Shown here: piece by piece, positions 3,155 through 34,297 of the stretch
Position numbering within the stretch: the stretch's first letter is position 1
Layout: the number at the start of each line of letters is the position of its first letter
Assembly (NCBI GenBank): GCA_019038625.1
Contig: JAHOYU010000105.1
Span: 1-35,205, forward strand
Direction: 5' to 3'
DNA: 35,205 nt
Source: Candidatus Latescibacterota bacterium
GTDB lineage: Bacteria; Krumholzibacteriota; Krumholzibacteriia; Krumholzibacteriales; Krumholzibacteriaceae
The notes under the pieces: generated by a model
Databases searched by the model: none
The model's input: only the letters and a program-made list of their open reading frames with translations
Told to the model about the DNA's origin: nothing
Position numbers and translations under genes: made by a program

Positions 3155-3201
3155 ACCTGCCTCCTGTGTGGTGTATAAGACTGCGTAGATCTACTGCAAA
3201 A

Positions 3202-3275
3202 TCAGCCCAGAGGGATTTGAACCCTGCGTCTCGAGTGCCACAGACTCGTGTGTTAACCAGCTACACTATAGGCTG
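3202..3275 (-). tRNA. tRNA-His (GTG)
   Basis: A cloverleaf can be drawn fully: acceptor CAGCCTA/TGGGCTG, D-stem GTGT/ACAC, anticodon stem CGAGT/ACTCG with loop CTGTGGC (anticodon GTG), and T-arm with TTCAAAT. The base before the 5' end (T) can pair with the discriminator A, giving the eight-base-pair acceptor expected of tRNA-His, although as U:A rather than G:C. One C-C mismatch closes the T-stem. CCA is not encoded. Confidence 0.85.
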
Positions 3276-3283
3276 AACATTAC

Positions 3284-7805: not shown

Positions 7806-7842
7806 TGTCCTTCCTCCTTGAGTTTTGACGTTTAAGTAACAG

Positions 7843-7914
7843 TCAGCGGTACGGGGCTCGAACCCGTCACTCCAGAGCCACAGTCTAGTGTGTCACCAGC
7901 AACACTTACCGCTT
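7843..7914 (-). tRNA. tRNA-His (GTG), second copy
   Basis: The arms can be drawn: acceptor AGCGGTA/TACCGCT, D-stem GTGT/ACAC, anticodon stem CTAGA/TCTGG with loop CTGTGGC (anticodon GTG), and T-arm ACGGG/CCCGT with TTCGAGC. The outermost pair is A-G, a mismatch. Its sequence differs widely from the first tRNA-His outside the anticodon loop. The upstream protein gene ends inside its first nine bases, so processing of the tRNA would remove that gene's stop codon. Confidence 0.75.
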
Positions 7915-8658: not shown

Positions 8659-8732
8659 TGACCAGCATGAGATTCGAACTCATAACCTGCGGGTTAAAGG
8701 CCCGCTGCTCTGGCCAGTTGGGCTAGCTGGTC
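8659..8732 (-). tRNA. tRNA-Lys (TTT) with unusual C33
   Basis: Clear cloverleaf: acceptor GACCAGC/GCTGGTC, D-arm TAGCCC...GAGC with one C-A mismatch, anticodon stem GCGGG/CCCGC with loop CCTTTAA, variable AGGTT, and T-arm ATGAG/CTCAT with TTCGAAT. The anticodon is TTT. The base before it, almost always T33, is C. CCA is not encoded. Confidence 0.85.
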
Positions 8733-10010: not shown

Positions 10011-10036
10011 TTTGGTTTTGGGCAAATAAAAAGGGA
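10011..10036 (-). repeat. Leader repeat, copy 1 of 3
   Basis: On the minus strand it reads TCCCTTTTTATTTGCCC followed by AAAACCAAA, directly before the SD (ATGGAGAAG) of the gene at 9809-9997. ATTTG and CAAAT can pair around CCCAAAAC, giving a small hairpin next to the ribosome site. The same 26 bases occur at 10395 (one change) and 10800. Confidence 0.75.
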
Positions 10037-10102
10037 TGAGGAGAAGGGAATCGAACCCCTACGCGCCCGATCGAGGCTGCTCTGCCATTAAGCTACACCT
10101 CA
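10036..10102 (-). tRNA. Degenerate tRNA-like element
   Basis: The T-arm (AGGGG-TTCGATT-CCCTT), D-arm (TAGCTTAATGGCAGAGC) and a near-complete acceptor (TGAGGTG/CTCCTCA, one T-T mismatch) are all present and tRNA-Gly-like. Only 17 bases lie between the D-arm and the T-stem, instead of about 22, and the best anticodon hairpin is GCCT/GGGC or GCC/GGC. No normal anticodon can be assigned. It is a decayed tRNA or a tRNA mimic. Confidence 0.5.
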
Positions 10103-13666: not shown

Positions 13667-13698
13667 TGTATTGACCTATCTTTCTCAGTGGGTGAATT

Positions 13699-13716
13699 TT
13701 TCATAACGTTATGAGA
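13699..13716. promoter_or_regulatory. Palindromic site P6 (operator-like, one mismatch)
   Basis: TTTCATAACGTTATGAGA, differing from the other copies by one base. It lies in the leader of the 228-residue gene, 33 bases before its ATG. It is the outermost copy, next to the divergent intergenic region. Confidence 0.65.
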
Positions 13717-13721
13717 ATGAC

Positions 13722-13736
13722 CCACATTCAACCGGC
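13722..13736 (-). repeat. Inverted repeat flanking the 12980-13666 gene, right copy
   Basis: The inverted 15-bp partner of 12951-12965. It lies just upstream of palindrome P6 on the minus strand. Confidence 0.6.
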
Positions 13737-14097
13737 GCGACCCACGGGGTTACTCACCGTTCACTTTGTCGTGCCTTCATATGCTACACGGTATAGGCAT
13801 GAAATTTTTCACGAATTAAGTTCATATACGACAACAAGTTACAGCGTTATATACGGGGTATAGTTGGCCTTAGTAACTGGGTAGAATCGCTGAATTAGGA
13901 CCAGAAAGGGTGCATTTGACGTAGGTTGGGCTAAGTTGTTGCAAAGAAAGGAGTTAAAAGAAGAGAAACGGGCAATACTATTGGATATGGGTACGTTTCG
14001 TACCTAAAGGGGTGTTTATGGAGGGTGTTTCGTCGTAACCTCGGCCAAATCAACTACTTACGGGTTTATTTTCGATTATTCGGGCCTATTTGTCGTG

Positions 14098-14155
14098 AGT
14101 AAGCTATGCAATTTGCAACCTTACTATAAGTAAGCTATGCTGTGTGCAACCTTAT
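14098..14155 (-). repeat. Two iteron-like repeats, same motif as in the initiator gene
   Basis: Two 27-base units start at 14098 and 14129, 31 bases apart. On the minus strand they read TAAGGTTGCA, four variable bases, then GCATAGCTTACT. This matches the repeats inside the initiator gene (21944-22098) nearly base for base, in the opposite orientation. They are probable binding sites for the initiator, for replication or for autoregulation. Confidence 0.8.
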
Positions 14156-14227
14156 ATAGAGTATATAGCGAAAAGAGCGACTTGAAAATTTGGATCGGCC
14201 GGATTTGGGCGAATATGGCGTTTGGGG

Positions 14228-14256
14228 TTGACTTTTGGGCCTAAATGTGTTATATT
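14228..14256 (+). promoter_or_regulatory. Promoter A (sigma-70-like)
   Basis: TTGACT, 17-base spacer, TATATT with a TG extension. It is one of five plus-strand promoters sharing the AATGTGTTATATTAC segment. It lies 25 bases before the AGGAGG-led first rightward gene. Confidence 0.85.
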
Positions 14257-15372: not shown

Positions 15373-15397
15373 TCATGTGACTCGAAAGGGAGCCGTA

Positions 15398-15790
15398 ATG
15401 GCGAAGCGCAGCATACTGAAAGCTAGAAAGAAGGATTTCCGGATTGACACGTTCAGAGCCGGTGGCAAAGGTGGACAGCACCAGAACAAGACAGATTCGG
15501 GAGTTCGGATCACCCATACCGAAACAGGCTTGTCTGCAGAGTGTAGAGAGCATCGCAGCCAGAAACAGAACAAGACTGCCGCTTTCTTGAAGCTCGTGGA
15601 CAAGCTCGTTGCGTGGGCTATAGAAAATGACACACCTGTGATGATCTACCACCAGGAGACCGTACGAACCTATAACAAAGCCACCAACCGAGTTACAGAC
15701 CATGCGACCGGCCTGAAGGTGTCCTACAAGGACCTGGACGGTGAGTTCGCTACTTTGGTTGAAGCTAGGCGGAAAGAGATGGACCGATAA
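15398..15790 (+). CDS. Stand-alone GGQ peptide release factor domain (RF-H/ArfB-like), 130 aa
   Basis: GGGAG precedes ATG 15398. Residues 14-60 match domain 3 of class I release factors: DTFRAGGKGGQHQNKTDSGVRITH in pieces, with GGQ at about 26-28, then GLSAECREHRSQKQNKTAA. The downstream VRTYNKATNRVTDH also matches RF1/RF2. The codon-reading domain is absent, so it cannot choose a stop codon by itself. The family (RF-H, ArfB) hydrolyses peptidyl-tRNA on ribosomes that are stalled or damaged. It is first in its unit, directly under promoter B, so it should be expressed strongly and early. The substrate state of the ribosome is inference. Confidence 0.88.
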   Translation: MAKRSILKARKKDFRIDTFRAGGKGGQHQNKTDSGVRITHTETGLSAECREHRSQKQNKTAAFLKLVDKLVAWAIENDTPVMIYHQETVRTYNKATNRVTDHATGLKVSYKDLDGEFATLVEARRKEMDR

Positions 15791-21456: not shown

Positions 21457-21730
21457 CAACCGAGTTCCAGTCAGCCACTTGCGCCCAGCAGGAAAATTAG
21501 TTACATTACAAGAGCTCAGCAAGCGCAGGGATCTCAGTCCGGCTTTTCAGTTAGGTCACAGCACTCAGCGAGGTCGGCTACTAAGTGTCGACTCCTCTGG
21601 AGCAGATGTGGTGTATGAAATTTACCAAGCTGATGGCGGCGTCCGTAAACAGAAAACATGGATCAGTGCGAGTACTCGTGTGTACCCATTACTTCCGTAC
21701 AAGCACAAAACAAGAAAGCATACTAAATGA
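21365..21730 (+). CDS. Hypothetical Lys/Arg-rich protein, 121 aa
   Basis: Starts MNKIKARKLVADDNQKRKRRKALRKKAKP, a strongly basic N-terminus of about 35 residues, overlapping the preceding gene by 92 bases in another frame. The rest looks like a small beta domain (GRLLSVDSSGADVVYEIYQADGGVRKQKTWISAST). It probably binds DNA or RNA. The ribosome site GAGGT is modest; ATGA coupling with the initiator supports it. Confidence 0.6.
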   Translation: MNKIKARKLVADDNQKRKRRKALRKKAKPVNNRVPVSHLRPAGKLVTLQELSKRRDLSPAFQLGHSTQRGRLLSVDSSGADVVYEIYQADGGVRKQKTWISASTRVYPLLPYKHKTRKHTK

Positions 21731-22722
21731 GTTTATCAACGAGTGCCAGGTTCCTGTGTTTCTACGTCCAGATGGCCGGCGGATCAATCGCCACCACGCG
21801 GGAGGGTCTTGGTGATCTTCTTGGTGTGCACATCTCCACCATCCACAGAGCACTTGTAGAGGCTCGAGAACTTGACTTTTTGACAGTCTCGAGAGGTTAT
21901 CGTTGCATCGTCGTCGAACAAACGGACACCCCTTTTGAGCTGAGTAAGGTTGCAGAGAGCATAGCTTATAAGGAAAGTAAGGTGTCACAGTGCAACACTG
22001 GAGTGAGTAAAGGTGCAGAGAGCGTAGCTTACTCTGAGAGTAAGGTTGCAGAAAGCGTAGCTTACTCGGAAGTAAAGGTGCAGAGAGCACAGCTTACTCC
22101 TGAAATTGAGGAGCCGGTTCCAGGTAGTACTATAAAGGATACTAGTAAGTCTATGTACAAAGAACCTAAAGAGCACATAGTAACTACGAAGCACACAGAT
22201 ACTAACAAGCACATAGTTAGTAATAGTGCCAAAACACCAAAAAAGCGAAAGCGAACTGCGAAGAAGGCGAAGCCTAAAAAAGAACCGACGCCGTCAAACT
22301 GTCCCTCAATACCGAAAGGTGGCATAGATGTCTCAAACGTAGCTGAAGAGGCATTTGCATTCCCATATGCCGGAAAAGGCTATAACGTGATGGGAGTGTG
22401 GTATTGGGTTTTGATGCGGTACAAGCGTAAGGGAATAGATCATCGTATGATATCGACTGAGTTTGGCAAGAAAGCCACTATCTATGCGAGGAACCTTGGC
22501 GCCGTGTTCGGCAAGGATTGGGATGAGCATAGGAAATACATCGACTGGTTCTTCCAGCAAGATGATGATTTCATTAGAAACAAAACACATTACGGGTTCG
22601 AGTATATGACAAGCAATGTATGCCTAAACAAATACAAAGCAAGCACCTCCCAGACAGGTGGTGCAGACTTTATAGACTCTGATGAAGAACGACAGACTCA
22701 CGGAAGGTGGATTCAGGAATGA
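21727..22722 (+). CDS. Replication initiator (lambda O-like organisation), 331 aa
   Basis: The N-terminal 60 residues are a winged helix: SIATTREGLGDLLGVHISTIHRALVEARELDFLTV. Residues 73-125 are coded by iterons and read SKVAESIAYKE, SKGAESVAYSE, SKVAESVAYSE and a frame-changed VKVQRAQLTPE. A polar region with a basic run (KTPKKRKRTAKKAKPKKEP) follows. The C-terminal domain from about 200 has GVWYWVLMRY and DWDEHRKYIDWFF and probably contacts the loader. It overlaps the loader gene as ATGA. In lambda, the O protein binds iterons inside its own gene and recruits the helicase through P. The gene order here, initiator then DnaC-like loader then helicase, fits the same job. No sequence match to O is claimed. 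Confidence 0.8.
   Translation: MSLSTSARFLCFYVQMAGGSIATTREGLGDLLGVHISTIHRALVEARELDFLTVSRGYRCIVVEQTDTPFELSKVAESIAYKESKVSQCNTGVSKGAESVAYSESKVAESVAYSEVKVQRAQLTPEIEEPVPGSTIKDTSKSMYKEPKEHIVTTKHTDTNKHIVSNSAKTPKKRKRTAKKAKPKKEPTPSNCPSIPKGGIDVSNVAEEAFAFPYAGKGYNVMGVWYWVLMRYKRKGIDHRMISTEFGKKATIYARNLGAVFGKDWDEHRKYIDWFFQQDDDFIRNKTHYGFEYMTSNVCLNKYKASTSQTGGADFIDSDEERQTHGRWIQE
21944..22098 (+). repeat. Probable replication origin: five iteron-like repeats inside the initiator gene
   Basis: Units start at 21944, 21977 (degenerate), 22007, 22040 and 22072, about 32-33 bases apart. The core is GTAAGGTTGC or GTAAAGGTGC, four variable bases, then AGC-NNAGCTTACT. Units 3 and 5 share 17 identical bases (from 22007 and 22072) read in two different frames, so DNA, not protein, is being conserved. 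An AT-rich stretch with repeated AGCACATAGT follows at about 22125-22230, as an unwinding element would. Confidence 0.82.
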
Positions 22723-23285
22723 GATTTACAGAACCTCCAGTAGGGCTTTTGACGATACCTAAGCGTTTTGCAGAAGCCAAGTTCGACGAGAAGACTTCAG
22801 ATGCCCTCAAATCAATTGGTGAGCTGTATGTGGACAATTTTACTACGTACTACTCCGAGGGCCGAGGGCCGGCTTTCTTAGGCGCACCAGGTGTTGGGAA
22901 GACCTATGCGGCCGCAGCTATCGCCCTGCAGCTTCATAAGATGGGAGTCCCCTGCTACTGGTCCGACGTAGTCGCAGACATGACTAAGCTGTTGGAGTGG
23001 AAAGACTTCAACCATCGGACAGAGTACTACAAGCTCAAAGGAAACATAGTCAACACTCCGTTCGTGGTATTGGATGACTTCACCTACTTGACAACATATC
23101 AGCGCACTAAGGAGCTTTTCTTTGAGATCTTGAACGCGCGATACTCGGCAGCACTACCAACACTAATTACAGGTAACTTTGCTCAAGATGACAGCGGTCC
23201 TTGGACAGCAATTAGTAACAATTTTGGCGGAGCAGTCTCCCGTCGCATAAAAGTCATGTCTAAAGGTTTAGTATTCAGAGATTGA
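22719..23285 (+). CDS. DnaC-like AAA+ helicase loader, 188 aa
   Basis: ATG 22719 overlaps the initiator stop as ATGA. Walker A is GAPGVGKT at residues 55-62, and Walker B is VVLDDF at about 116-121. The N-terminal 20 residues (RFTEPPVGLLTIPKRFAEAKF) resemble loader starts. The ending DSGPWTAISNNFGGAVSRRIKVM fits the sensor/Arg-finger region (S-R-R). It should load the DnaB-type helicase made by the next gene. Confidence 0.87.
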   Translation: MRFTEPPVGLLTIPKRFAEAKFDEKTSDALKSIGELYVDNFTTYYSEGRGPAFLGAPGVGKTYAAAAIALQLHKMGVPCYWSDVVADMTKLLEWKDFNHRTEYYKLKGNIVNTPFVVLDDFTYLTTYQRTKELFFEILNARYSAALPTLITGNFAQDDSGPWTAISNNFGGAVSRRIKVMSKGLVFRD

Positions 23286-23289
23286 GGGG

Positions 23290-23318
23290 TTGACAAATGG
23301 AGACGAATGTGTTATATT
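23290..23318 (+). promoter_or_regulatory. Promoter E (sigma-70-like)
   Basis: TTGACA, 17 bases, TATATT with GAATGTGTTATATTAC, as in the others. It lies directly after the loader stop, so the primase-helicase and polymerase can be transcribed separately. Confidence 0.84.
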
Positions 23319-23340
23319 ACATGCTAAGAAAGGACACCGA

Positions 23341-25326
23341 GTGAGCACACGTAGAGAAGTCGCAGAACAGATGTTTGAACTCTTCCAAGGTCGGAGGAGT
23401 GCGTACGCTATTAAGATCATGAAAGCTGATGGTGGGAAGGTGTTCATCCCCAACAGAGACGGGGAGGAAGACTTACCCTTTACACCAGAGGTCCTGGAAG
23501 CTCATCTCGCTGGTGAGATAGCCGCAGGCATCTATGTGCTCGATGGCACAGAGACGATGTGTGCGGTGGTTGACTTTGATGGCAAGAAGGGCGATCCTCT
23601 CAAGGATGCCCTGGTGGTCAAGAGTGCAGCCCTTACGAAGCTAGGATTGAGTAGCGTCCTGGAACGATCACAGAGTGGAAATGGTGTCCATCTGTGGTTC
23701 TTCTTTGATACGATGATTTCAGCGAAGCTGCTGCGTTTTGTAATCGGTAGTGTGATTCCTGAGTTTTCAGTTACGGTCAAAGATCGTGTATCGAGCTATG
23801 ACAGGTTGTTTCCTGTTCAAAATGATGCAGGTGACAGTTATGGCAGCTTGGTGGGCTTACCACTGAACGGGCCTGAGCTGATAGCAAAGGAACGCACCGT
23901 ATTCATCTCTGAAGACGGTGAATGCTTGCCAAAGCAGAGTGAATTGATAGGCAAGCTCTTGTTACAGAGAAATCTGTCAGGAGCAGTGCGAGAGATCGCT
24001 AAGAGTCTTCCAGCTCCGCAGAAGCGCACATCCGGCGGTAAAAACAACAAGAAGATGAAGAAGACGGCAGGGGGTATGAAGCTGTTGTCGCAATACGGTT
24101 GTTCGTGGCTAAGAGGAATGCTGGAGAACCCTGATAGTATGGACGAGTCCGAGTGGCACGCAGCTTTGGGTCAGTTTGCTCAGATTAAAAACGGCGAAGT
24201 TCTGGCACATACTTTCAGTTCCAAGTCGTCTAAGTATAATGAGAAGCAGACACAGGCCAAGTTCGATGTAGCGTTGAAAAAAGACCTACCTATGCGTTGC
24301 GACACGATACGCGAGAAGTTCGGTGGATGTCCTGAAGACTGTGTCTGTCAAGAGTTTGGATATGACTATCCGTGGCAACTAGCCAAGATACCACTAGAGA
24401 AACTACAGCAGCAGCAGACCGGCCTGGTTTACACTGGCGTAGAACTGGCCTCCGTGGCCCTGGATGTAGCCAAAGAGATTGACAGTGGCCAGAGGATGGG
24501 TTTCACATGGGGCTATGACGTACTTGATGACGCTACTGAGCTCAGACCGAAAGATCTCGTGATCGTCGCTGCACGTCGTAGTATGGGTAAGACAGGAGTC
24601 ATGATCGACTCTTCTTATAGAGGTGCCAGCATAAAGGTTCCACAATATGTCTTCTCCCTGGAGATGAGCGCTGAACAGCTAGCCTTGCGGTACTTGGCGC
24701 GGATCAGCGGCGTGGACCTGACGTTGATCACCACAGGTAAGTTAGGGCCAGCGGAATGGAAGCGAGTGAACGATGCTGCCAAAGAGCTGAGCACTCTTCC
24801 GATCTATATAGATGACACAACATGTATGGTTGAGCAAATGCTTGATCAAGCCGGAGAGCTTGTATTCCAGCACGGACAAGGTCCGATGTGGGTAGACTAT
24901 CTACAGTTGGTTAAAAAGCAAGGTCGTGAGTCTCAGAAAGAGGCTGTAGATGCAGTTATCTACGCGTACAAAAATATCGCCAAGATTCTAGATGTGCCCG
25001 TAGTAGCGCTTGCACAGTTCAATCGCGGCGAAGAGACGTACGAAGGTAACGACGACCTAGACTCCTGGCTGAAGGACACAGGTAACATCGAACAGCATGC
25101 GGACGTGATTCATTACATCCGAGGTACAGCAGCTCCTGGGACAGTGGTACGCCGTTGGCGCATCCACAAGGAGCGGCACAGACCGCAGGCGTTGAATTTC
25201 AAGTTCGAGTTGGAGCAGTGCATATTCAAGTGGGAACCAGCGGGTATCTGGGCTGGGGACGCTGGGGTGGACGCAGACAACCTTTATGAACTTAGCGGGC
25301 GCGGGTTTGATGACATTGAGGACTGA
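23341..25326 (+). CDS. Fusion of TOTE-type archaeo-eukaryotic primase and DnaB-family helicase, 661 aa
   Basis: GTG 23341 after AAGAAAGGA is preferred; the longer frame would read through promoter E. Residues 1-200 are an AEP primase: VVDFDG at 77-81 (two catalytic Asp), RSQSGNGVHLWFFF at 109-122 (the S-x-H motif), and SYDRLFPVQ...GLPLNGPE at 153-180, hallmarks of the TOTE primase. A middle region has CDTIREKFGGCPEDCVC. From about 390 it is a DnaB RecA-like core: Walker A ARRSMGKT at 411-418 and DYLQL at 519-523. One protein thus makes primers and unwinds DNA. The common phage solution is a TOPRIM (DnaG-like) primase joined to helicase, as in T7 gp4. Confidence 0.85.
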   Translation: MSTRREVAEQMFELFQGRRSAYAIKIMKADGGKVFIPNRDGEEDLPFTPEVLEAHLAGEIAAGIYVLDGTETMCAVVDFDGKKGDPLKDALVVKSAALTKLGLSSVLERSQSGNGVHLWFFFDTMISAKLLRFVIGSVIPEFSVTVKDRVSSYDRLFPVQNDAGDSYGSLVGLPLNGPELIAKERTVFISEDGECLPKQSELIGKLLLQRNLSGAVREIAKSLPAPQKRTSGGKNNKKMKKTAGGMKLLSQYGCSWLRGMLENPDSMDESEWHAALGQFAQIKNGEVLAHTFSSKSSKYNEKQTQAKFDVALKKDLPMRCDTIREKFGGCPEDCVCQEFGYDYPWQLAKIPLEKLQQQQTGLVYTGVELASVALDVAKEIDSGQRMGFTWGYDVLDDATELRPKDLVIVAARRSMGKTGVMIDSSYRGASIKVPQYVFSLEMSAEQLALRYLARISGVDLTLITTGKLGPAEWKRVNDAAKELSTLPIYIDDTTCMVEQMLDQAGELVFQHGQGPMWVDYLQLVKKQGRESQKEAVDAVIYAYKNIAKILDVPVVALAQFNRGEETYEGNDDLDSWLKDTGNIEQHADVIHYIRGTAAPGTVVRRWRIHKERHRPQALNFKFELEQCIFKWEPAGIWAGDAGVDADNLYELSGRGFDDIED

Positions 25327-27343
25327 GTTTAACTATGAATACATTACTGAAGCGTCTTCACTCGAAAGGGTGAAGGCGTGGATGCAAAACCACAAGTCGT
25401 TTGTAGTGGATCTCGAGACTACAGGTCTTGATCCGTTCTCGAACGATATAGTACTAATGCAGATCGGAAATACCGAGAAGCAATGGGTGATAGATGTACG
25501 GGCTGTAGACATCGAACCCCTGAAACCGATAATGGAAGATCCAGAGTATTTGAAGCTGGGTCAGAACATCAAATTTGATTTGAAGTTCTTGAAGCACCAG
25601 AGGAATTGGAGCTTTGAGAACGTAGCAGATACCATGATCGCTGAACAAGTAATGCGTTGCGGTATTCTTATGGGCGGTGCTAGTATGGGCGCCCTAGCCC
25701 AGTTTTATCTCGGTATAGAGATCGACAAAGACCACAATTTGCGTACAGGTTTCGGTAAAACAGGCGTAGGCATGTTTTCGGAGCGGCAGCTTAGATACGC
25801 AGCAGGGGATTGTATCTACCCCGTGCAAATTGCGCGTCATCAGAAGGCTAAGATACGCGAACGCGGACTGAGTAACACCTTGTCACTAGAGCATGCCTTC
25901 ATTCCTGTCCTCGCAGACATGGAACTAGAGGGAATGCGAATCGACGCAGAAGCATGGACTGGTCTGTACCAGCAGGCACTGCGTAGCGCAGCTGAACAAG
26001 AGAAGTTACTTGATAAGCTGTTCCAAGTGGAGAAGGTTAGTCAAGGCGACATGTTTGGTAAGGCGCAGACGGTGCGTAGTCTGAATTACGGGTCATGGCA
26101 GCAGGTGCTGAAGCGTCTCGTCGGTTTGGGGTATCGCACTCTGCAGAGCACCGATTCGGAAGAAGTGGCCCTAGCGGCCATCAACGGACAGATTCCACGT
26201 GAGCTTGCTCAGGCATTGATCGCGTATCGTATCTTCCGTAAACGCGCGAATACATACGGCCTCGGATTCTTAGAAGCTATACATCCCGTTACTGGGCATA
26301 TTCATAGCGATTTTACGCAGGCCACTACACATACAGGACGCTTAAGTTCTGGGCAGCGAGGCTTTAGCACCGGCACATCGAAGAGAGTGAATCTTCAGAA
26401 CATTCCGCGATTGTCGAAGTACAGACACTGTTTTATCCCTGACGATGGAGATGTGTTCATCGTATGGGATCTGAAGGCGATCGAACCACGTATTCTAGGG
26501 GACATGTCTCAAGATCCAACATACGTAGAGACATTCACGAACAACGGTGATATCTACAATGCACTGGGTTCTGTTATCTACGGGGAAACTGTTAGCAAGG
26601 CACCAGGACGGCCGTCTGAGTTGCGTACCAAGACGAAGATCGGAATCCTGGGTACGTCTTACGGAACAGGCAAGAACAAGTTCTACAGGAACATGCTTCT
26701 TGACTTGAACCTTAATGAAGAGGGATTCCTGAAAGATACACCAACTCACATCACACAGGATGAAAGCGACTCCCTGTGGGAAGGTATCTTCGAGACATGT
26801 CCTGGTATTAAACAGACACTGGACTCTTTGAGTGAGATAGCTAATCCCTTAGGTTCGAATAGGACCTTATACGATGAGCGAGCTGCACATGAACCAGAGA
26901 GCAAGGTGTATGACAAACTAAAAGAGATGTTTGAACGCAACTCGAAGTTGACTGAGGAAGACGTAAAGGGCAAGGCTGGACGCCTAGTCAACAAGCGTGG
27001 GTATGTTAGCTACAGTGTTTCTAGAAACGGTCGCAAAAGATACTTCAAGGTCTATCATGGATCTTCGTACACAGACGGCCGGAATCATCCGATTCAGAGT
27101 ACTGCAGCTGACATTCTGAAGAAAGCATCCGTAGACGTGCATCGTCGTATCAAGCAGGAAGGGCATCACGCGGCGATCATTAATCAGGTGCATGATGAAT
27201 TAGTACTTCGATGCCGAAAAGATGAAGCAGAAGCAGTGAGTGCGTATACACAAGAGCTAATGGAAGCAGCCGGAAACGCTTTCATGTCTACCATACCGTG
27301 TGCTGCTGAGGGCGGAATTTACAACAGATGGGAGAAAGAATAA
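25310..27343 (+). CDS. Family A DNA polymerase (exonuclease + polymerase), 677 aa
   Basis: The ATG at 25310 overlaps the helicase gene by 17 bases; a TTG two codons later is possible. The 3'-5' exonuclease has DLETTG (D34, E36), NIKFD (D90) and YAAGD (D167). The polymerase has motif A as WDLKAIEPR with D387 (the usual DYSQIELR is changed), RTKTKIGILGTSYG (motif B), and VHDE at 627-630 (motif C). A DHNLRTGFG region lies between. It is of T7/Pol I type and probably replicates the phage genome. No 5' nuclease domain is present. Confidence 0.93.
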   Translation: MTLRTEFNYEYITEASSLERVKAWMQNHKSFVVDLETTGLDPFSNDIVLMQIGNTEKQWVIDVRAVDIEPLKPIMEDPEYLKLGQNIKFDLKFLKHQRNWSFENVADTMIAEQVMRCGILMGGASMGALAQFYLGIEIDKDHNLRTGFGKTGVGMFSERQLRYAAGDCIYPVQIARHQKAKIRERGLSNTLSLEHAFIPVLADMELEGMRIDAEAWTGLYQQALRSAAEQEKLLDKLFQVEKVSQGDMFGKAQTVRSLNYGSWQQVLKRLVGLGYRTLQSTDSEEVALAAINGQIPRELAQALIAYRIFRKRANTYGLGFLEAIHPVTGHIHSDFTQATTHTGRLSSGQRGFSTGTSKRVNLQNIPRLSKYRHCFIPDDGDVFIVWDLKAIEPRILGDMSQDPTYVETFTNNGDIYNALGSVIYGETVSKAPGRPSELRTKTKIGILGTSYGTGKNKFYRNMLLDLNLNEEGFLKDTPTHITQDESDSLWEGIFETCPGIKQTLDSLSEIANPLGSNRTLYDERAAHEPESKVYDKLKEMFERNSKLTEEDVKGKAGRLVNKRGYVSYSVSRNGRKRYFKVYHGSSYTDGRNHPIQSTAADILKKASVDVHRRIKQEGHHAAIINQVHDELVLRCRKDEAEAVSAYTQELMEAAGNAFMSTIPCAAEGGIYNRWEKE

Positions 27344-30800: not shown

Positions 30801-31343
30801 ATGCGAGTAATTGCGTTAGACGTATCCGGCTCTTCAACGGGTTGGGCGTACGGGGAAGGACGAGAGTTGTTGGAGTGGGGTAAGTTTATCTCGAACTTAC
30901 GGCATAGCCGTGGGCGACGATTGCATGAATTTGGAGAGCGGTTGTCTGAGTTATTTAGCGAATACGACCCAGAGGTGTTGCTGATAGAAAAGCCATTTCT
31001 GGGACGTAACAGCAACGTACTGGCAAACCTCTCTAAGTTCGTGGCGATCGCCGAAGAGGCCGCTTACAGAACTCTCGAACTGGATATCGAAGCTGACTGG
31101 TTTATTGATCCTCGACAGATAAAGAAGTTGATGGGGGTCAAGAAATCAATAGTCAAGAAGAACACTAAAGCAAAGCACGATGACAACAAACAGATAATGG
31201 TGAAACGGATTAATAAGCTGTACGGCCTGGGTCTGAAGTATAGCAAAGGTAAGAGTAAGAAGCATAACGATGACGATATAGCCGATGCTATCGCCGTATG
31301 GCATGCGTGGTGGATTCTCAACAGCGATGAGTCTGCACACTAA
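30801..31343 (+). CDS. RuvC-like Holliday junction resolvase, 180 aa
   Basis: A GGGGG tract precedes the ATG. IALDVSGSSTGWAYG at residues 4-18 supplies the first Asp (D7), LLIEKPF at 60-66 the Glu (E63), and KKHNDDDIADAIAVWHAW at 153-170 the final Asp set (D158/D159, D162). A Lys-rich loop (GVKKSIVKKNTKAKHDDNK) would contact DNA. It should resolve four-way junctions or branched replication products before packaging. Confidence 0.85.
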   Translation: MRVIALDVSGSSTGWAYGEGRELLEWGKFISNLRHSRGRRLHEFGERLSELFSEYDPEVLLIEKPFLGRNSNVLANLSKFVAIAEEAAYRTLELDIEADWFIDPRQIKKLMGVKKSIVKKNTKAKHDDNKQIMVKRINKLYGLGLKYSKGKSKKHNDDDIADAIAVWHAWWILNSDESAH

Positions 31344-31743: not shown

Positions 31744-32141
31744 CAGAAAAGATAGACAAACCGACCAGAGAATTCGGCATGTCGTGGGACGAGATTGCCG
31801 ACTATGACAAATTAATCATCGCCATCTCCGTAAAATACACAGGCGGAGATGAAGATTTACGAAAAGACGTATCACAAGAGGTGCGATTGCGGCTACATGC
31901 CGATCGCAGACTTGACACAAGTAGGTTTGATCCTACGAAAAAAGACTCAGCTATACGCAATACTATTCGTAACAAGGTATTGACCGTCATAGGTTCGCGT
32001 AACCTAGGCAAGTCCCAGCTGTCGTCTTTGGAGGCGTTATATGCGATGGGCTTACAGGTGGATTCTAATTACAATGTGGTATATCCAGACCTCCCTAATG
32101 TCGGCCCTCCGGTTGATACAGCAGAAGGTGAGGAAGGGTAA
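31740..32141 (+). CDS. Sigma-region-2-like protein, 133 aa
   Basis: ATGA coupling fixes the start. Residues 20-80 read YDKLIIAISVKYTGGDEDLRKDVSQEVRLRLHADRR, then TSRFDPTKKDSAIRNTIRNKVLTVI. DEDLRKDVSQEVRLRL followed by FDP and a basic amphipathic helix is the layout of sigma factor regions 2.1-2.4. It is about 60 residues shorter than an ECF sigma and has no region 4 of its own, which the upstream neighbour may provide. Late phage transcription is the natural role, by inference. Confidence 0.6.
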   Translation: MTEKIDKPTREFGMSWDEIADYDKLIIAISVKYTGGDEDLRKDVSQEVRLRLHADRRLDTSRFDPTKKDSAIRNTIRNKVLTVIGSRNLGKSQLSSLEALYAMGLQVDSNYNVVYPDLPNVGPPVDTAEGEEG

Positions 32142-34297
32142 TGGCTAGGCTGATACAAGAGTTTGACGTAGGTAAGGACTTCACAGAAGGCGAATTCAAC
32201 CATTGGCGAGAGCAGTTGACGTGGTGGATTAGTACGTCGATGACTAACGTCGAAGACCCACTTGGGCATGCTAACAAAGTTTTGGATGCAGCCACAAAGG
32301 GAACGAAGCTAAACGGCGAAGCATGGCCACAGATTTCGAACGATTTCTTTAAGCGTGTGAATCAGTTAGCCGGTTTCGACTTGAAGAAGGGCGTAGGCAA
32401 GAAGAAGAACCCTGCCGGCCGTCCCAAGACCACCCGTAACAAGCGTACCTTCTCGCAGATCACAGCGGAACAAGTACCTCCTATACCTATTACTGAAGTG
32501 GATAGACGACAGGATGCGTACATAGAAAATTTGGTAGCTAAATACCCTCACCTTGATAGTCCTGTGTACGCACCAAAGGTAACAGAGCTAGCAGAGCTTA
32601 TCATCAAGAGTGGGATGATGAGCCTGGATTTCATGGCTGCGACAGGTAAGACGCTTGAGCTGCTAACCAAGGTTAGAGCTGAGATGCAGAAGCAGATTGA
32701 CGCGATCATGAACTTCCTTGAGATCTCTCCGAAGATGCTACTTACCAAACAGAAAGAAGCGCAAAATTCCGATGTCGGTAGCTTGATAGCGTCGATGGAG
32801 GAGTTCGGTGATTGGTGGCAGGACTTCGAACGTATTGATGCGTTGCGTGAGCTATTACAAAAATACCACCAGCTGAACGCATTGCGTCCGGACAGCACAC
32901 CTCAGCTAAATGCCTGGGAGCTGTGGCACATGACACGTAATCGTCCAGTAGAGTTTACCTGCCGTTGCTTACAAGGGGATCAGAAGGTGTGTTTAGAAGA
33001 CGGAACGTGGGTTCCTATAAAAAAGATTGTGCAAAACTCAAGCTCCGAGAGGGTGATTTCTCTTGATCCTTTGACCGGTAAGTTTGAGGCGCGACCCATT
33101 CTTTCCTGGTATACGAGTAGGACTGATAAAGTAAAGTGGTTTAAGGTTTCATATGAAGGTGCAAGAGGTCGTAAGAATAACAAAACCGAGTCAGTAATCG
33201 TGTCCAATGATCATAAAATCTATACGAGAACAGGTCTGTGTCGTGCTGATCAGTTAACCACAGAGAACGAGATCGTTGTACGTGCTCCTGCACCTAATGA
33301 GCAACAGTATCAGGTCCTGGTCGGGACTTTGTTAGGTGATGCCAGTATTCGTAGCGGTTTTTGTTTCAAACATAGTGCAAAACAAAAAGAGTGGTTTGAT
33401 CTGAAAGTTGCATCGTTTAAGGGTTTACGTGGTGTTGTTCAGTCGTTCCCTGAACGAAACACCAGTAAAGCTGGGTTTTCCTTTAGAACTTTGCAGTATC
33501 CGTTTGTTCGCAAATTGAGAAACGAGTGGTATCCAAATGGTAAAAAAGTGATTCCAGAGTTTTTAGATTTAACACCTATGGTTTTAGCTACGTGGTATAT
33601 GGACGATGGTTCATTGGTGAACAAACAGACAGTTCGTATTGCTACACATTCCTTTAAGCAAGACAATCTAGTCTTGATTCTAGAGCAACTGTTGCGGAGG
33701 TATGCCATAACTGCACAGTTTAACAGCGCCGGACAGGGCTGTAACACAAAAGTCCTAGCAATAACCAATAAGACCAGCAATAAACAAGTTACGCATGACT
33801 CAGCGGGCAGGTTTTTTAACCTTATTTCCGCTTACATTCCAGAGTCTATGCAGTATAAACTACCCGAGCAGTTTAGAGGCAACTACGATGCGTCGCTGTG
33901 GCAATTAGGTTCAGCAAACGAGTATTCCTATTGTAAAGCAGTGGTCGAGCCTTGTGAAGTTGACGACAGAAGGATGTACTGTTTTGAAGTAGAAGCAAAC
34001 CATAACTTTGTAACTAGCGCTAATATTGTTGTAGAAAATTGCGGTGAGAGTTACACTTTGTTAGGCGGGTTTACACCAGAAGAAATAGAGCAGGCGTTAG
34101 TTCAAGCACAAGCAGTGTATGGATTCGGCCTGGAAGGGATTGAAGGAGTCGATTTCGTCGATGATGGAGTGGTACGCGAAGGTGCCACCTTAGGTAACAT
34201 CACTGTGACCGAAGAAGACATTATGCCTGCGGAGATGGAGGATCTAGATGCCGAAGAAGATGCGACGAGTACCAGCAGCGACGGAGCAAGTACTTAG
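32141..34297 (+). CDS. Intein-containing protein next to terL, possible small terminase component, 718 aa
   Basis: GGAAGG precedes ATG 32141 (TAATG). The exteins (residues 1-275 and 634-718) join to a protein of 360 residues. It is helical in the middle (ELAELIIKSGMMSLDFMAATGKTLELLTKVRAEMQKQ), has a basic NPAGRPKTTRNKR segment, and has an acidic tail (EDIMPAEMEDLDAEEDATST). The splice point lies in FTCR-CGES, so the ligated sequence would be CRCG, a zinc-ribbon-like site. Its position directly upstream of terL suggests a small terminase or packaging factor, but no small-terminase motif is recognised. Confidence 0.8.
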   Translation: MARLIQEFDVGKDFTEGEFNHWREQLTWWISTSMTNVEDPLGHANKVLDAATKGTKLNGEAWPQISNDFFKRVNQLAGFDLKKGVGKKKNPAGRPKTTRNKRTFSQITAEQVPPIPITEVDRRQDAYIENLVAKYPHLDSPVYAPKVTELAELIIKSGMMSLDFMAATGKTLELLTKVRAEMQKQIDAIMNFLEISPKMLLTKQKEAQNSDVGSLIASMEEFGDWWQDFERIDALRELLQKYHQLNALRPDSTPQLNAWELWHMTRNRPVEFTCRCLQGDQKVCLEDGTWVPIKKIVQNSSSERVISLDPLTGKFEARPILSWYTSRTDKVKWFKVSYEGARGRKNNKTESVIVSNDHKIYTRTGLCRADQLTTENEIVVRAPAPNEQQYQVLVGTLLGDASIRSGFCFKHSAKQKEWFDLKVASFKGLRGVVQSFPERNTSKAGFSFRTLQYPFVRKLRNEWYPNGKKVIPEFLDLTPMVLATWYMDDGSLVNKQTVRIATHSFKQDNLVLILEQLLRRYAITAQFNSAGQGCNTKVLAITNKTSNKQVTHDSAGRFFNLISAYIPESMQYKLPEQFRGNYDASLWQLGSANEYSYCKAVVEPCEVDDRRMYCFEVEANHNFVTSANIVVENCGESYTLLGGFTPEEIEQALVQAQAVYGFGLEGIEGVDFVDDGVVREGATLGNITVTEEDIMPAEMEDLDAEEDATSTSSDGAST
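32966..34039 (+). other. Intein with LAGLIDADG homing endonuclease, 358 aa
   Basis: Starts at Cys276 (CLQGDQKVCLEDG) and ends VVEN before Cys634. Block B is IVSNDHKIYT and block F is CFEVEANHNFVT, followed by the C-terminal strand. Two dodecapeptide motifs, LVGTLLGDASI and ATWYMDDGSL, mark the LAGLIDADG nuclease. The penultimate residue is Glu, not the usual His, which may slow or alter splicing. The DNA here is more AT-rich than on either side, consistent with insertion. Confidence 0.87.

Follow-up and report, generated by a model that had tools for sequence, protein, structure and literature searches.

In the phage DNA analysed here, an origin of replication probably lies inside the gene of its own initiator and is worked by the product of that gene, and the same protein would act at a second pair of sites near 14.1 kb. 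This is the best explanation of the whole that the sequence offers. That the layout is origin-like, with phased sites, a stretch prone to unwinding and an operon with loader and helicase genes, is well supported. The window comprises the entire 35,205-bp contig (C105) of an assembly of 3.78 Mb in 269 contigs. A terminal repeat indicating circularity was looked for at the contig ends, and none was found. The genes run leftward to ~13.7 kb and rightward from ~14.2 kb. The features relevant to replication are listed in Table 1.

Table 1. Positions of the sites, the candidate unwinding element and the replication genes in the window
Feature	Position	Strand	Remarks
Divergent intergenic region	13667..14244	.	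holds the distant pair; largest gap of the window
Distant iteron A	14098..14125	-	consensus arms exact; noncoding
Distant iteron B	14129..14156	-	noncoding; 31 bp from A
Putative initiator gene, 331 aa	21727..22722	+	ORF; weak HTH match
Iteron unit 1	21943..21970	+	full copy
Degenerate unit 2	21976..22003	+	left arm 10/12; right arm 5/12 (by eye)
Iteron unit 3	22006..22033	+	full copy
Iteron unit 4	22039..22066	+	full copy
Iteron unit 5	22071..22098	+	reading frame differs from units 1, 3 and 4
Candidate DNA unwinding element	22125..22224	.	least stable 100-mer of the 35-kb window, (z 3.56)
DnaC/IstB-like helicase loader	22719..23285	+	PF01695 1.9e-12; phrog_50 1.8e-22
AEP primase-DnaB-type helicase fusion	23290..25326	+	PF22548 1.9e-31; PF03796 4.8e-45
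Family A DNA polymerase, 3′-5′ exonuclease domain	25286..27343	+	PF00476 4.1e-50; PF01612 5.3e-29

The site is 28 bp long and consists of two arms, AGTAAGGTTGCA-N4-GCATAGCTTACT, which form an imperfect dyad around a 4-bp core that varies. Four full copies and one degenerate copy occur at 21943-22098, all within the winged-helix gene, which thus contains at least three candidate initiator sites; the ORF product would be the protein that binds them. The full units start at 21943, 22006, 22039 and 22071, and their spacings of 63, 33 and 32 bp, like the 31 bp of the distant pair, are close to whole helical turns (10.5 bp). The original prediction had described five units at a 32-33-base period. 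The array is real, but five is a generous count, as unit 2 is without its right arm. A terminator-like hairpin, GTGTTGCACTGTGACAC, lies on the minus strand at 21982-21998, within this degenerate unit, and may explain its departure from the consensus. When the window was scanned with the consensus (≤3 mismatches), 3 matches were obtained against 0.00 expected from shuffles. With a PWM, six sites scored 29-45 bits, compared with 8.6 for the next best in the window. Half-site scans were consistent with this two-cluster picture, and no site copies beyond the two clusters were found when the 3.78-Mb assembly was scanned (≤3 mismatches).

The two additional copies, overlooked in the original prediction, are on the minus strand in noncoding DNA, ~7.9 kb from the in-gene array and in the opposite orientation to it. 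They sit where the gene direction switches and the GC skew turns, the cumulative GC-skew minimum being at 13789, which puts the turn at 13.8 kb rather than 22 kb. This turn could reflect an origin there, or merely divergent transcription. The 100-mer starting at 14067 ranks seventh among the least stable in the window. As in the two-origin layout of SPP1, therefore, a second cluster is present in distant intergenic DNA of low stability.

Selection on the sites as DNA was assessed by keeping the protein fixed and redrawing the codons, either at background frequencies or as a random permutation of the gene's own synonymous codons, with 20,000 recodings under each of these two null models. Of 96 informative positions, the four real units share 87 with the noncoding copies. 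The recodings agreed with them at 64-66 of the 96 positions on average and at 77 at most, and none of the 40,000 equalled the real sequence. This result indicates that the DNA itself is under selection, and the presence of noncoding copies on the opposite strand rules out a purely protein-level cause. Selection on DNA had already been claimed, from a block common to units 3 and 5 that is read in two frames. The block is real, and is 18 bases long rather than 17 (AGTAAAGGTGCAGAGAGC, encoding SKGAES in one unit and (V)KVQRA in the other). Recent duplication could by itself produce such an identity, and the noncoding pair together with the recoding test provides the stronger argument, by which the claim is well supported.

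Immediately downstream of the array, the candidate unwinding element contains 18-bp repeats (22157-22222), which bears out the prediction that an AT-rich, repeat-containing stretch follows. Its stability is below that of ~99% of synonymous recodings; since ~1% of them reach the same instability, the encoded residues contribute part of it. The same calculation applied to lambda recovers the AT-rich region that is known to lie immediately downstream of its iterons. Matches to the DnaA box TTATNCACA (one mismatch) numbered 29 against 29.9 expected, with none in either cluster. A DnaA-dependent iteron plasmid origin was therefore rejected, the boxes being neither enriched nor present beside the iterons. 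Scans for promoters near either cluster stayed at chance level: promoter-like matches numbered 2 versus 2.3 expected, and around the in-gene array the plus strand showed no promoter-like site. The promoter scan gave an extended -10 candidate at 14228-14256.

Domain matches confirmed that loader, primase-helicase and polymerase genes come next (Table 1), so that the array belongs to an operon with a loader and a helicase. The ATG of the loader gene and the stop codon of the initiator gene share bases in an ATGA. An AEP (TOTE-type) primase and a DnaB-type helicase are combined in a single 678-aa protein, for which no phage record matching more than 80% of the protein was found. No relatives of the primase-helicase, the dGTP pyrophosphohydrolase or the loader were found in IMG/VR. 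The polymerase matched one distant IMG/VR contig at 24% identity, and this contig was rejected as a comparable locus, its repeats and ORFs showing no like layout. Helicase matches in the phylum of the window were rejected as phage kin, as they cover mainly the helicase domain and resemble host DnaB.

The putative initiator has a winged-helix-like domain at residues ~7-64 and a linker at ~80-200, whose codons make up the iterons and the AT-rich stretch, followed by a C-terminal part predicted to be helical (model pLDDT 37, low confidence). Its N terminus matched HTH_Crp_2 with E=0.0029, under the curated cut-off. AlphaFold models (pLDDT 37 for the whole protein and 41 for the N terminus) were unusable for a fold search, because there was no alignment to build on. 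Relatives of the protein were sought in IMG/VR, GTDB genomes, phages, plasmids and the phylum of the window, and none were found; nor was there a PHROG or NCBIfam match. A scan of IMG/VR for the site motif found none, and a scan of GTDB genomes gave four single matches, approximately the number estimated to occur by chance. By these sequence searches, the phage appears to be without close relatives in the collections searched.

Several other genes in the window were noted. Four tRNA genes lie on the minus strand at 3201-3276, 7842-7914, 8659-8732 and 10036-10102 (two tRNA-His, one tRNA-Lys and a fourth recognised by Rfam only). A peptide release factor-like protein with an RF-1 domain, here phage-borne, is encoded at 15377-15790, and cytidylyltransferase-like and NUDIX domains are joined in one protein, perhaps of NAD metabolism, at 344-1276. 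The 718-aa ORF at 32141-34297 includes an intein and a homing endonuclease of the LAGLIDADG type; those parts that belong to the host protein have no family match. Elsewhere in the assembly, a small contig (C79, 1-4120) encodes a large terminase of this or another phage; it has no 15-mer in common with the window, and a link between the two is unsupported.

Origins inside initiator genes are known from several phages. In lambda, dyad iterons lie within O and adjoin an AT-rich stretch (PMC5043065, PMC3349717). Here, as in lambda, dyad iterons lie in mid-gene, in the DNA that encodes the linker of the initiator, with AT-rich DNA directly downstream, and the initiator and loader genes share the same ATGA overlap. 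The lambda sites are 18 bp long at a period of 20-24, whereas those described here are 28 bp at 32-33; the loader is DnaC/IstB-like AAA+ and not P-like; and the distant second cluster sets this phage apart from lambda. No sequence match to the initiator was found among phage records, lambda included, so the protein does not group with the lambda O family. In Bacillus phage SPP1, gene 38 and the distant intergenic oriR each contain repeats and an unwinding stretch and are bound by gp38; oriR has been proposed to set off concatemer synthesis by acting as a barrier to forks (PMC6316719, PMC3485210). The SPP1 oriL/oriR system (gp38-gp39-gp40) shares with this phage in-gene repeats with an AT-rich stretch, a distant cluster, and genes for a loader and a DnaB-type helicase. 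The SPP1 clusters are 12-13 kb apart, compared with 7.9 kb and opposite orientation here, and SPP1 uses host DnaG, PolC and DnaE, whereas this phage carries its own AEP primase and polymerase. SPP1 also has a resolvase, G44P; a RuvC-like Holliday junction resolvase, of relevance to a theta-to-concatemer switch, is encoded here at 30801-31343. The lytic origin of P1, oriL, lies inside repL and depends on an AT-rich stretch that is sensitive to synonymous changes (PMC9948254); an origin within the initiator gene and dependence on such a stretch would be common to both phages, although 'iterons' are not mentioned in that paper. The description of the origin as lambda-O-like thus holds for the type of layout, but given the distant intergenic cluster SPP1 appears to be the closer match in layout. 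As the layout matches and no sequence match to lambda O was found, we place the locus among origins inside their initiator genes and not in the O family or, provisionally, the gp38 family.

In the mechanism that we favour, the array would make up the origin together with the AT-rich DNA downstream of it, both within the segment of the initiator gene that codes for the linker. The 21727-22722 product, probably dimeric through its winged-helix domain, would bind the phased 28-bp dyads, wrap the DNA and melt 22125-22224. Gene order and protein families suggest that the initiator and the DnaC-like loader would then bring in the AEP-DnaB primase-helicase. The same initiator may also bind the 14.1-kb pair, which could be an additional origin, a barrier to replication forks or the operator of a promoter. 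Against this scheme, the initiator is without a detectable relative, its HTH match being sub-threshold only; the linker repeat is in frame in three of the four units and could have a role in the protein as well; and the turn in GC skew falls at 13.8 kb instead of 22 kb.

The last of these points bears on the assignment of the array as "the replication origin of the phage". The origin-like layout stands, but the assignment is not settled, because a cluster that had been overlooked lies at the GC-skew minimum and the switch of gene direction. The true origin could be the 14.1-kb intergenic region, with the in-gene array titrating it, pairing with it or blocking forks. Its position next to the skew minimum at 13789 and the gene-direction switch, the exact consensus of site A, the low stability at 14067 and the noncoding nature of the DNA all favour this arrangement. 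We nevertheless consider it unlikely: there are only two sites, compared with four or five in the gene, the DNA that flanks them falls short of the extreme at 22125-22224, the replication genes are at 22 kb, and divergent transcription alone also switches the skew.

Imperfect dyads are typical of dimeric regulators, and the distant pair is in a divergent, promoter-like region with the extended -10 candidate at 14228-14256. The sites might thus be operators bound by a transcription regulator, whether this is the ORF product or a different phage protein, with the array damping or timing the replication operon. This seems quite improbable in view of the chance-level promoter matches and their absence from the plus strand near the array, and operators seldom take the form of four or five phased copies in mid-gene just before the most unstable DNA. 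Clusters of phased repeats together with a small HTH protein would also suit centromere-like partition sites of a phage-plasmid, a very remote prospect, as the neighbours of the array are loader and helicase genes and no ParA-type ATPase gene was seen beside it. Least credible is a recent duplication or protein-level repeat without function as DNA. Three of the four units do share one frame and the peptide repeat SKVAESVAYSE, but unit 5 is out of frame and two noncoding copies of opposite orientation lie ~8 kb away; a repeat of the protein only was rejected, as it is contradicted by the recoding test.

Our preferred reading, an in-gene origin with a distant pair bound by the same protein, may be extended tentatively. 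The phage could represent an unrepresented lineage with an orphan initiator and an SPP1-like two-site programme. In such a programme the array would start replication and feed the phage-encoded AEP-DnaB primase-helicase and polymerase, replacing the host replisome, while the same protein at the pair would act as a switch, either a fork barrier or a repressor of an early promoter.

If the in-gene origin is confirmed, this would be another origin embedded in its own initiator gene and accompanied by a distant cluster, here with a new site and a protein that looks unrelated, and would suggest that the layout of lambda and SPP1 is a recurring solution. The combination of noncoding copies and the recoding test would allow such origins to be recognised from sequence in phages without characterised relatives. 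The two clusters would make a theta-to-concatemer switch, or one between replication and transcription, testable in a small plasmid system.
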